60,781 bases of DNA from an uncultured Lachnospiraceae bacterium (GTDB lineage Bacteria; Bacillota; Clostridia; Lachnospirales; Lachnospiraceae), in the NCBI GenBank assembly GCA_944383545.1, contig CALWPY010000012.1:1-60781 (forward strand), read 5' to 3'. Of this stretch, positions 1 to 59,197 are shown piece by piece. The notes under the pieces were generated by a model. The model did no database searches and was not told the origin of the DNA. It worked only from the letters and a program-made list of their open reading frames with translations. Position 1 is the first letter of the stretch. Every line of letters starts with the position of its first letter. Position numbers and translations under genes: made by a program.

Positions 1-15
1 AATTGTATATTGTTA

Positions 16-66
16 TCACCAATCCGAAGGATTGATGATGCACGCACAGCGCCATCGCGGAGCGAT
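16..66 (-). repeat. Two-hairpin intergenic repeat module, copy 1
   Basis: Read on the minus strand this has the same layout as the copies at 2151-2209 and 57505-57563: a short GC-rich hairpin (ATCGC arms at 54-58 and 62-66), a GGCGC-containing linker, then a hairpin at 16-38 that opens with TCATCAAT and closes with ATTGGTGA. The inner part of the second stem is CC/GG here but TTG/CAA in the other copies, so base pairing is kept while sequence changes. The function is unknown. No convincing gene covers it. Confidence 0.6.
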
Positions 67-83
67 TTTCATGCACTGTGCTC

Positions 84-161
84 ATTATATCATGTCGCCT
101 GTCGGCTCCATGTGTTCATTCGCATTATGCCGGATTCCGCAAGCGCAATCCGTCGCAATGC
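84..161 (+). repeat. Palindromic intergenic repeat, left copy
   Basis: About 78 bases that recur at about 90% identity, in the same orientation, at 60705-60781. The right part (122-161) is an imperfect palindrome: GCATT at the left end pairs with AATGC at the right end, with a GCGC-rich apex. The left part carries the shared string GCCTGTCGGCTCCATGTG. It resembles REP/MITE-like intergenic repeats; no coding function is apparent. Confidence 0.7.
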
Positions 162-216
162 TCACTATATCATAGAGTATAACCTATATGATGATTTTAT
201 TCAAGTTAAATAAAGA

Positions 217-1852: not shown

Positions 1853-2086
1853 ATGACATCAGTTAAAATTTCTCTTAATTCTATTGATAAAGTAAAGTCA
1901 TTTGTCAATGATATCAGCGGATTCAATGCAGAATTTGACCTTATCTCAGGAAGATATGTAATAGATGCAAAATCTATCATGGGAATCTTCAGCCTTGATA
2001 TTTCAAAACCTATTGACTTAAATATCCACGCAGAAGAAAATATTGATGAGATTATGGAAGCATTAAAGCCATATCTTGCAGAGTAA
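1853..2086 (+). CDS. HPr-like protein lacking the active-site histidine
   Basis: A 77-aa HPr-fold protein related to the PTS phosphocarrier. The region equivalent to the regulatory Ser46 of Gram-positive HPr is conserved (AKSIMGIFSL). The N-terminal loop that should hold phospho-accepting His15 (GLHARPA in HPr) reads instead as NSIDKVKSF, with no His. It therefore cannot carry phosphate from enzyme I in the usual way. It may be a Crh-like regulator phosphorylated on Ser by HPr kinase (inference), or have lost PTS function. I chose ATG 1853 because GGAGG at 1840-1844 sits 8 bases upstream; the in-frame ATG at 1847 is only 2 bases from it. It is a single-gene unit with its own promoter and terminator, one of only two plus-strand genes in the window. 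Confidence 0.8.
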   Translation: MTSVKISLNSIDKVKSFVNDISGFNAEFDLISGRYVIDAKSIMGIFSLDISKPIDLNIHAEENIDEIMEALKPYLAE

Positions 2087-2150
2087 TATACAGACATAAC
2101 ACATGGACACGACGCATAAAAATCGCTTTTCGGTATCGCGCGCATAAAGA

Positions 2151-2209
2151 ATCGCACTTCGTGCGATGGCGCGCGAGTAGTTCATCAATTTGTTACACAA
2201 ATTGGTGAA
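2151..2209 (+). repeat. Two-hairpin intergenic repeat module, copy 2
   Basis: Hairpin 1 is ATCGCAC-TTC-GTGCGAT (2151-2167). A linker GGCGCGCGAGTAG follows. Hairpin 2 has 12-bp arms TTCATCAATTTG (2181-2192) and CAAATTGGTGAA (2198-2209) with one G-T pair. It lies between the convergent ends of the HPr-like gene and thiI. The linker and hairpin 2 are nearly identical to the copy at 57505-57563, while hairpin 1 differs in sequence yet remains paired. The flanks (2100-2150 and 2210-2260) hold further GC-rich short inverted repeats and no gene. Confidence 0.7.
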
Positions 2210-2263
2210 GAACGCGATGGCGTCGCGGCTGTCCCCCTCCCGTTGGTCGGCGGAATCATAACT

Positions 2264-2298
2264 AAAATAAGACTGCCTTTCGGCAGCCTTATTTTTTT
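2264..2298 (+). terminator. Bidirectional terminator between the HPr-like gene and thiI
   Basis: The stem AATAAGACTGCC/GGCAGCCTTATT with loop TTTC is followed by seven T on the plus strand. On the minus strand the hairpin ends in TTATTTTAG, so it can also end the hrcA-thiI operon coming from the right. Confidence 0.8.
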
Positions 2299-2325
2299 GT
2301 ATTAATATTAATAAAATTAATAGAA

Positions 2326-19623: not shown

Positions 19624-21579
19624 TTATTTTGAAATATAAGGCTGTGCCGTACTTCCCGGTGCAGGACTTCCCTTTGGAACAATAACTATCTGAATTGCTT
19701 CAAGTCTTCTGCTTAAGCCTGATGTTCCTGCTGACTGACCATTCTTTGCCCAGTCAAGCCAGCCGTAAGTCTGTGCGTGAACTCTGTAATAAATATCATA
19801 TTCATTTGCCATTTGTCCCGTGAGTTTAATTTCTATAGCCTCAAGGCGTTTGGACTGACCGCTCGTTCCACTCATCGCACCATTTGACACCCAGTTCTGC
19901 CAACCGTCTCTCTGTACATGGGTCCTGTATGTAATGCCACCCGAAACTCCTGTATATCCCAGATTTATCCTTATTCCTTCAAGTCTCTTTGACTCATTAA
20001 ATGTTCCGCTTACAGAGCCATCATACACATAACTCTGCCAGCCGTAAGACTGTACATGTGTTGAATAATTTACACTGCCTGCTGTGGAAGTATTATCAGC
20101 AGACTTGCCGTATTCCACGTAAGAATATCCGATGAGCCCATCCGGTTTACTGCCTTTTTTCACAACAACTATCTGTATGGCTTCCAGACGTTTGGACTGA
20201 CCGCTCGTTCCTGCAGGCTCACCATTCTTTGCCCATCCGAGCCATCCATAGGTCTGTGCATGGACTCTGTAATAAACATCATATAAGGCAGCATTAGTTC
20301 CTGTTAATTCAATACAAATAGCTTCCAGACGTTTGGCCTGGCCACTCGTTCCACTCATCGCACCATTTGACACCCAGTTCTGCCAACCTTCTCTCTGTAC
20401 ATGGGTTTTATACCTTATTCCGACATCGGTACCGGAAATATTACTCAGAGAAATACAGATTCCTTCGAGACGTTTGGACTGACCGCTTGTTCCACTTGTA
20501 TTTCCGTTGGAAACCCATGACTGCCATCCGTAGCTTTGCACATGAGTACTATATGATACATTTATATTTGGAGTAGTTACATTTGTAACTATGGCCGTTG
20601 AACCGTTGTAGTCAGAAGAAGACATAGGATATGCCTTATGGAAAGATGACGTATTATATTCATCTATCCTCTTATGGTAATATGCAAAAATCTGATTTGA
20701 AGACCCTTTGAGGAAAAACTCTTTATGAGAATTAGTATCCAAATCATAAGTAGCATCCACATTATAATAAAGATTTCCTATTTTTACTATATTCCATCCA
20801 TGGTCCTCACTCGGAATAACCCTTACTGACATGCCAAGCTCCCTGCAGAGCCTGTAATATGCCGTAGCTATTCCCTGACATACGACATTCTTATTAATAA
20901 GTGCATTATATGTTGAATATCTTGAATACGTATAATCATATGAAATATTATTTGTTAAGTATTCATAAACCTTTACAGCTTTTGTATATTCATTTGCATT
21001 ATAAAGCCCCTTTAAATCACCGGTAGTAAGAAGTCTCGTTACCTCCCTGTCCACCGCTGCTTCCTCAGCCGCATTCGTAAAATAAAGCAAATCAATGTAA
21101 TAGATAATATAATTATCATATTGTCTATAATATCCGTTCAGTGCTCTGTAATGCCAGTAAAGATAATCTCCTTCATCCGGAAAGGCAGTTTCTTCAAATA
21201 GTTTACTTCTGATTTGGTTATAAACATCCATTCCGTCGGCACCGTTAGTATTATAAACAGTAAACTCTACATAACTGTCTCTTGCAACCATACGCTTACG
21301 AAGATACTCAGTTGCATCACTGATACTGTAACATATTCCTGCATCAACTGAAGTATTATTCTCATTTATAGAATATGCATCCGTTGAATTTTCATTATCT
21401 GAAGGCAGTGAAAGGCCACTTACTTCCTCGTATGAGTCTCCATACAAATGATTGTAGTCAGTAAAATTACCACTGTTCTCATATTCCTCAGCACTTACTC
21501 TATTATCCGTAAGAATCACCTGCGAAACAATAAGCATTAACCCTATAAACACACTCAATATTTTCTTACTTATTCTCAT
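19624..21579 (-). CDS. Secreted transglutaminase-like protein with six ChW repeats
   Basis: A 651-aa exported protein: signal peptide (about 1-30, ending RVSA), then a transglutaminase-like cysteine domain with a probable triad C234 (VVCQGIATAYY), H260 (SEDHGWNIV) and D275 (YYNVDATYD). From about residue 341 there are six clostridial hydrophobic-W (ChW) repeats of about 46 residues (GW...G.SGTSGQSKRLEAI). They fall into two sets of three. ChW repeats are extracellular modules of Clostridia, proposed to bind surface polymers or form cellulosome-like assemblies. The catalytic domain may cut or cross-link peptides in the wall; the substrate is unknown. The neighbouring amidase shares the same array, so the pair probably acts at the same surface. 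Confidence 0.85.
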   Translation of the reverse strand: MRISKKILSVFIGLMLIVSQVILTDNRVSAEEYENSGNFTDYNHLYGDSYEEVSGLSLPSDNENSTDAYSINENNTSVDAGICYSISDATEYLRKRMVARDSYVEFTVYNTNGADGMDVYNQIRSKLFEETAFPDEGDYLYWHYRALNGYYRQYDNYIIYYIDLLYFTNAAEEAAVDREVTRLLTTGDLKGLYNANEYTKAVKVYEYLTNNISYDYTYSRYSTYNALINKNVVCQGIATAYYRLCRELGMSVRVIPSEDHGWNIVKIGNLYYNVDATYDLDTNSHKEFFLKGSSNQIFAYYHKRIDEYNTSSFHKAYPMSSSDYNGSTAIVTNVTTPNINVSYSTHVQSYGWQSWVSNGNTSGTSGQSKRLEGICISLSNISGTDVGIRYKTHVQREGWQNWVSNGAMSGTSGQAKRLEAICIELTGTNAALYDVYYRVHAQTYGWLGWAKNGEPAGTSGQSKRLEAIQIVVVKKGSKPDGLIGYSYVEYGKSADNTSTAGSVNYSTHVQSYGWQSYVYDGSVSGTFNESKRLEGIRINLGYTGVSGGITYRTHVQRDGWQNWVSNGAMSGTSGQSKRLEAIEIKLTGQMANEYDIYYRVHAQTYGWLDWAKNGQSAGTSGLSRRLEAIQIVIVPKGSPAPGSTAQPYISK

Positions 21580-57321: not shown

Positions 57322-57355
57322 AGTGGGCGGACTGCAAAAATACAGTCCGCCCACT
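57322..57355 (-). other. Perfect 13-bp hairpin after groEL
   Basis: AGTGGGCGGACTG (57322-57334) and CAGTCCGCCCACT (57343-57355) with an A/T-rich 8-base loop. There is no U-tract on the minus strand, so it is at best a weak terminator for groESL; it lies just upstream of the cdd promoter. Confidence 0.6.
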
Positions 57356-57433
57356 GAGTGGAGAAATGCTATGCGTACATCGGGAGATGCGCGGATTGGT
57401 GAAAACTGCACAATGTGCACGGGTATCAATGTG

Positions 57434-57563
57434 CACGGCACATTCCAGTCCGCTTCGCGGATGTGCCGTGCTTCTTGGTGTACGGGTATCACGCACCATC
57501 CTAATTTGCGCTTTGCGCAAAGGTGCGCGAGTAGTTCATCAATTTGCTTCGCAAATTGGTGAA
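57434..57563 (+). repeat. Hairpin-rich intergenic repeat cluster, including two-hairpin module copy 3
   Basis: CACGGCACAT...ATGTGCCGTG (57434-57470) encloses a CCGC/GCGG hairpin. Then TTTGCGC-TTT-GCGCAAA (57505-57521), a linker GGTGCGCGAGTAG, and the 12-bp hairpin TTCATCAATTTG/CAAATTGGTGAA (57535-57563) with loop CTTCG. The last part repeats 2168-2209 almost exactly. A partial copy (ATTGGTGAAAACT) appears again near 57395. The whole 323-base gap between groEL and cdd is taken up by these structures. Confidence 0.75.
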
Positions 57564-57565
57564 AA

Positions 57566-59197
<1,632 letters not shown>

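Follow-up and report, generated by a model that had tools for sequence, protein, structure and literature searches.

Is the short two-hairpin sequence at 2151-2209 of this contig a structure held by selection, or is it a copy of a mobile element that carries hairpins? The window, that is, the whole stretch of DNA analysed, is one entire contig (C12, 60,781 nt) of a Lachnospiraceae genome of 2.26 Mb in 23 contigs. A sequence-only reading had described three copies, at 2151-2209, 57505-57563 and 16-66, and had left the choice between the two explanations standing. All three were found as described, with GAGTAG at 2175 and 57529 and absent from the copy at 16-66.

Element copies in the window and the genome

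The 59-nt copies are the cores of larger two-hairpin elements of 72-80 nt. The units are called here module A (69 nt), module B (about 79 nt) and class C (about 72 nt). Within the window the following features were found:

14-85 (minus strand): class C element, two hairpins with the outer stem GCACAGTGC/GCGCTGTGC and TATAATG before the element on its strand; includes 16-66; detected by cmsearch with model R2 (E 4e-6) and by class C features.
2095-2100 (left copy) and 2257-2262 (second copy), no strand: direct repeat CATAAC in the sequence, a possible target-site duplication, a single case and suggestive only.
2105-2126 (plus strand): left arm of hairpin 1 of module A (GGACACGACGC-ATAAAA-ATCGC); seen in the sequence, in BLAST matches to other A copies and in the fold of 2095-2270, which pairs the arm with about 2213-2234.
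2132-2210 (plus strand): module B, a whole two-hairpin element in the apical loop of hairpin 1 of module A; includes 2151-2209; detected by cmsearch with R2 (the copy is part of the model) and by BLAST matches elsewhere in the genome.
2213-2259 (plus strand): right arm of hairpin 1 and hairpin 2 of module A (CGCGATGGCGTCGCGGCTGTCCCCCTCCCGTTGGTCGGCGGAATCAT); seen in the sequence, with similar right ends at L009, L010, L012, L019, L021 and L029.
57345-57484 (plus strand): GC-rich palindromes on the upstream side of the copy at 57485-57564 and adjoining it, a mosaic with limits drawn by eye; the fold of 57360-57575 has -93.3 kcal/mol (z -5.87).
57485-57564 (plus strand): a second module B, whose hairpin-1 stem differs; includes 57505-57563; detected by BLAST from the first copy (E 1.1e-10) and by cmsearch with R2 (the copy is part of the model).

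With B nested in A, positions 2105-2259 form a composite of about 155 nt, which lies 3' of a small ORF and, by eye, directly 5' of a terminator-like hairpin. The fold of 2095-2270 reaches -60.2 kcal/mol against a shuffled mean of -47.53 (sd 3.72, n=200; z -3.41), and none of the 200 shuffles was as low. On the opposite strand z was -2.60 and 3 of 200 shuffles were as low.

The likeness of the copies is above chance. BLAST with 2095-2270 matches 57508-57563 at E 1.1e-10, and R2, a covariance model built from 13 module B sequences and containing no class C sequence, still matches 14-85 on the minus strand at E 4e-6. For 2132-2210 (1.4e-27) and 57485-57564 (3.7e-23) the R2 values do not count as an independent test, as these two copies helped to build the model. 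The order of two hairpins that had been described is real, but the description was partial: it lacked the outer stem of hairpin 1, below the bulge, and the nesting in A, and the copy at 16-66 belongs to another class (C). Directly upstream of class C, at window positions 86-175 (minus strand) and at L082, lies an extra palindromic unit (AGCATTGCG...CCGGCATAATGC...GGAGCCGACAGGCGACATGATATAATG) with a TATAATG-type box at its end (by eye).

In the whole genome, BLAST with window positions 2095-2270 gave 44 matches at E<=1. R2 gave 78 at the same threshold, a count that includes partial, overlapping and both-strand matches as well as weak matches to A and C. A covariance model of module A, R1, built from ten rows of which one is a join, gave at least 17 module A matches at E<=0.001; the true number may be higher, because scoring was limited to 17 candidates per genome. 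BLAST and the covariance models place dozens of element copies in the 2.26-Mb genome. The covariance-model search of the genome and its relatives, which the sequence-only reading had proposed, found related structures in other genera as well, and the possibility of only three chance matches is therefore excluded.

Module A is found singly, in tandem, or with B in a loop. Tandems at 69 nt occur at C5:140/209, C1:381913/381982, C4:99229/99298 and C17:32514/32583. B lies in loop 1 of A at L008, L009, L010, L011 and L014, and in loop 2 at L011, L017 and L018. The composites at L008-L011 all contain the same B variant and are probably one lineage; independent nesting events would therefore be few. 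Class C also has tandem copies (L086), and one copy is found within a B copy (L071). 

In a sub-lineage of A the right end (GGCGGAATCAT) lies, by eye, shortly 5' of a terminator-like inverted repeat (L008, L009, L012, L019, L021, L029). A terminator script applied to 24 loci performed poorly: only L019 and L029 gave sensible results, at L008 the hairpin was spurious, and the script found no end in three loci and the wrong place in several. Four contig ends lie in or adjoin class C copies (the start of C12, which is window position 1, the ends of C3 and C5, and the start of C22), as expected if these repeats break assembly.

The plan common to A, B and C consists of stem 1, a one-sided bulge CATNNAAA, an inner hairpin, a short linker, and hairpin 2, which is often slightly imperfect. 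The outer stem of hairpin 1 (e.g. GCGCGC/GCGCGC) lies under the one-sided bulge, mostly ATGAAA, which faces approximately one base. RNAalifold found 20 pairs in ten A rows, with changes on both sides in 8, and 27 pairs in 13 B rows, with changes on both sides in 14.

Twenty-five B-type sequences were aligned with MAFFT; 19 come from this genome, and the other six belong to Schaedlerella arabinosiphila and to two further named records. The alignment was compared with shuffled ones, kinship being ignored. Paired cells amounted to 95.0% against 84.9 +/- 0.6% in shuffles, and 74 cells were changed on both sides against 19.7 +/- 3.4, a value reached by 0 of 500 shuffles. Slid structures pair in at most 47.8% of the cells. 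Further pair types showed no excess over shuffles in this alignment (417 of 500 reached the value). A larger set of 51 distinct rows was drawn from three named records and from 12 genomes, each of a different genus. In this set 26 of 27 pairs were changed on both sides, in 322 cells against 75.5 +/- 8.9 shuffled; here too kinship is ignored, the rows are model-aligned and so biased towards the model, and they include three opposite-strand or partial matches. The covariation first noticed between three copies is confirmed, with paired changes far above shuffles when kinship is ignored.

Insertions in genes, other genomes and a related MITE

A simple ORF caller was run on 35 element loci, which are part of all matches. 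Module A was found within four long ORFs, encoding pheT, a GH3 beta-glucosidase, a GSP_synth-type protein and a YfhO membrane protein. In all four genes it is in sense orientation and in one common frame (D-x-[TA]-H-x-[NK]), and in each case five of the six frames are stop-free within module A. According to the caller, eleven more loci lie within ORFs. Ten of these ORFs have 61-90 residues and were treated as spurious; the remaining locus, C16:1663, holds an AB pair, and here the caller ran the ORF upstream through the element from the apparent radA start (by eye).

Nothing that corresponds to pheT residues 102-126 is present in any of the 26 other genomes with a match (31 were searched and 27 matched, including this one). 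In those 26 the flanks, before 102 and after 126, are at most 6 nt apart; they abut directly in 16 and overlap by 3 nt in three. Since the flanking pieces adjoin or nearly adjoin in the other 26 genomes, 75 nt were most likely gained in the pheT of this genome, the empty sites being seen only via distant orthologues. GH3 residues 466-514 contain the two tandem A copies and have no counterpart in PDB 5k6l. A part of the GSP_synth gene had no match among solved structures at E<=1, and among the four genes insertion relative to homologues is shown for pheT and GH3 only.

By sequence comparison, copies occupy many sites in one genome, in tandem, loop within loop, and in frame in genes whose relatives lack them. 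The elements are therefore quite likely non-autonomous mobile DNA palindromes. Both selection on structure and a hairpin-bearing mobile element had been suggested from the first copies, and that suggestion is supported; the mobile branch is favoured over RNA because of the in-frame insertions in genes, the nesting, the tandem arrays and the few G.U-type pairs (see below). Tandem growth could have happened by replication slippage instead of transposition.

R2 matched 14 of 397 sampled genomes of the family, in 14 of 334 genera, this genome counted (E<=0.001, at most 11 candidates scored per genome). Across these 14 genomes the B stems are largely different in sequence, but the two-hairpin plan persists, and several of the genomes have units in tandem (by eye). 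R1 matched this genome and, weakly, G149 among 299 genomes of the family (17 candidates scored per genome); the G149 matches are the hairpin of a MITE, not module A. R3 matched 9 of 392 genomes of the order, including this one, all from one family, in a listing that does not give the family split of the 392. The pattern GCATGAAAATYGCNNNGCRATGGC occurred in 2 of 397 family genomes and the reversed pattern in none. In a collection of named genomes the same pattern was found in 39 stretches, 26 of which are titled Lachnospiraceae or one of its genera; single matches in Omnitrophota (L119), Verrucomicrobia (L145) and Clostridiales (L120) look like chance. Phages and plasmids gave no match at E<=0.001, and a phage or plasmid origin was rejected on this ground. 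Another hairpin, AAGGAATCCTCCC...GGGTCCCTCCTT or a near variant, was seen by eye to recur at L092, L157, L160, L170, L202 and L218, in this genome and in other genera, and in G219 a hairpin of this type replaces hairpin 2 (by eye).

The hairpin-1 motif found with GCATGAAAATYGCNNNGCRATGGC is also part of a MITE of about 150 nt, found in 27 stretches (28 copies). A script for its ends recognised both in 16 of the 28 copies, missed the right end in five and found no left end in seven. Of these 16 copies, 10 are flanked by exact 8-bp target duplications; as background, 240 mismatched pairings of ends gave none. Copies with ends like GTATCTGTTCAG...CTGAACAGTTAC and exact 8-bp duplications are those at L117, L125, L126, L127, L131, L133, L135, L140, L143 and L147 (Lachnospiraceae, unnamed MAGs). 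In G275, which belongs to another genus, a B element lies in the hairpin 1 loop of a MITE-like element (L166, L212).

This related hairpin 1, in an element with GTAAC-type ends and 8-bp duplications, raises the possibility that A, B and C are themselves IS-derived MITEs, moved by double-stranded cut-and-paste by a DDE transposase. Like MITEs they are short, non-autonomous and dispersed. Unlike them, A, B and C have no terminal inverted repeats of the MITE kind (by eye), and paired changes run throughout their internal hairpins. Target duplications, seen for the related MITE in other genomes, are unproven here: A and B offer the single suggestive CATAAC, and class C is flanked by TATAATG-type repeats that are alike but indistinguishable from element sequence. 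GTAA ends together with 8-bp duplications are a signature of IS66. Searches for the IS66 transposase gave no match in this genome and a match in one of four genomes with the related MITE, where the MITE end motif was absent from the 3.7 kb examined; IS66 as the mobiliser of that MITE is not supported. An origin of A, B and C as IS-derived MITEs is possible but doubtful.

DNA palindrome or structured RNA

A structured RNA, whether a cis-regulatory leader, an mRNA stabiliser or a small RNA, would be under selection at the level of the transcript, and the strong covariation fits such an RNA. So do the surroundings of class C. A TATAAT-like hexamer (at most one mismatch) stands directly before class C in 17 of 20 scored copies, which places the element directly 3' of a -10-like box; at 20,000 random window positions the same measure gives about 7%. 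The 20 copies are not independent, as L082 and L086 contribute two tandem copies each and L095/L096 are near-identical neighbours. Outside the 20 are L076, which is too short, L094, which has no flank, the copy in the window, which the pattern did not detect, and L100 (not included). With a both-strand ORF caller the 3' neighbour was in the same sense in 7 of 8 class C loci. In 17 of 18 loci (the exception is L085) a same-sense-only script found an ORF that begins 12-80 nt 3' of the element; 12 of those 17 ORFs end at the locus edge, nine after 26-66 residues. A B-like match in another genus (G314) has a similar TGATATAATG arrangement. TATAAT-type boxes are also found 3' of many class C copies, and because the box stands on both sides, a target duplication and a box carried by the element are indistinguishable there.

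Other observations speak against RNA. The start peptides of the genes 3' of class C are diverse, and element copies are found in both orientations, in tandem, nested, and also within coding genes. No Rfam family reached its gathering score at the elements, including with relaxed thresholds on window positions 2050-2320 and six loci; the only match of the window to Rfam 15 at gathering score is one tRNA. Sub-gathering matches were weak, for example 25.1 of 58.7 bits for L20_leader and 19.7 of 48 for Clostridiales-1. Membership in a known structured RNA family was rejected, the elements being far below every gathering score, in agreement with the first impression that no described RNA family is present.

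G.T pairs are rare. Outside position 89 there are 15 of them in 1205 cells, 1130 of which are standard pairs; with position 89 included they make up 40 of 1172 standard pairs. In 32 distinct tRNAs of the same genome set, 80 of 760 pairs are of the G.U type; this comparison is rough, as it uses minimum-energy folds, which cannot show non-standard pairs. Because a structured RNA is expected to tolerate more G.U, the rarity of G.T points to DNA palindromes rather than RNA. A structured RNA is unlikely as the explanation of these elements.

GNA loops are very stable in DNA. The 50 B-type and C elements counted, many of them related, have 79 triloops; read on the plus strand 60 of these are TNC, which corresponds to GNA on the minus strand, and all four middle bases occur. 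In module A, 3 of 10 rows have TNC at loop 1 if a TTC within the longer L036 hairpin is included, and the GNA-loop argument is not valid for this module. The non-Watson-Crick cells outside position 89 on the plus strand comprise 48 A.C, 15 G.T and 27 others, but at position 89, close to the foot of hairpin 2, most cells are T.G. Wobble asymmetry gives a weak and mixed strand preference: action on the minus strand can only be suggested, because the A.C/G.T asymmetry is opposed by the mostly T.G position 89.

Proposed movement and comparison with known repeats

As a mobile DNA palindrome, we infer, the unit would have the form of a folded single strand when it is copied or moved. The moving strand would perhaps be the minus strand, on which the loops of B and C are mostly GNA. 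A putative enzyme would be supplied in trans, and we infer that it would prefer single-stranded or extruded targets such as hairpin loops and melted -10 boxes. Effects on host genes would be a by-product, namely a shared 5' leader in the case of class C and approximately 23-25 added residues per copy in proteins in the case of class A. Searches for Y1 and IS66 enzymes found no mobiliser. We tentatively raise the further idea, rather improbable as a whole, of a distinct Lachnospiraceae-type mobile class which would move as a folded single strand into single-stranded targets, depend on an enzyme not yet known, and write promoter leaders and in-frame protein segments.

The elements would work like REP, BOX and Rickettsia palindromic elements (RPE), where RPE and BOX are likened by description and REP membership failed on the transposase. 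RPE are palindromic units of about 150 bp which, according to PMC10969869, are found in frame in unrelated protein genes of Rickettsia. Module A likewise lies in frame in unrelated protein genes (pheT, GH3, GSP_synth, YfhO). Compared with the description of RPE, however, the elements here belong to another phylum, have a two-hairpin plan with a recurrent bulge, and nest in hairpin loops. BOX, RUP and SPRITE of Streptococcus pneumoniae are described in PMC3049150 as interspersed repeats with extensive secondary structure, and in PMC10969869 as clustering and inserting into one another. The elements here are similarly interspersed, structured, clustered and mutually inserting, but, going by description, they differ in having one architecture across the modules and in the in-frame position of A in four genes.

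GTAG- and CGTC-tagged REPs are short palindromes with a short tag, some copies of which lie within genes (PMC3733652; the words Firmicutes and Clostridi are absent from its main text). The elements here are also tagged short palindromes, some of them in genes, but they have two hairpins per unit, a tag that is not constant, and no tyrosine transposase in the genome. It is very unlikely that they are REPs of the GTAG super-family whose movement depends on a REP-associated tyrosine transposase (RAYT). GAGTAG does stand directly 5' of hairpin 2, a 29-nt imperfect palindrome, and GTAG-tagged palindromes define that super-family (PMC3733652), the tag being expected beside a palindrome of 20-40 bp. 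Against it, the 2.26-Mb genome (99.87% complete) has no Y1_Tnp match (PF01797) at E<=0.001 in a search whose control was positive in 5 of 14 known genomes. The tag before hairpin 2 also varies: some B copies have GAGTAG, many have GAGCAG or GAGAAG, and other genera have, for example, CTGCG or CTACA (by eye), with no GAGTAG seen beside hairpin 2 in A or C. RAYT/REP membership was rejected for this genome, and the earlier remark that the element is not a described REP held on the test of the tyrosine transposase. No description of these elements was found in the literature, in a search which largely left subscription papers outside and which leaves absence unproven.

The elements reach an RPE-like in-frame outcome in a distant bacterium, and their plan is kept across 14 sampled genera despite stem sequences that have largely been exchanged. 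This makes directly testable an old question: by what route palindromes spread that have no transposase of their own, and whether they add segments to proteins. In Lachnospiraceae, the elements would account for GC-rich hairpin clutter and for some of the contig breaks in the genomes of this family.
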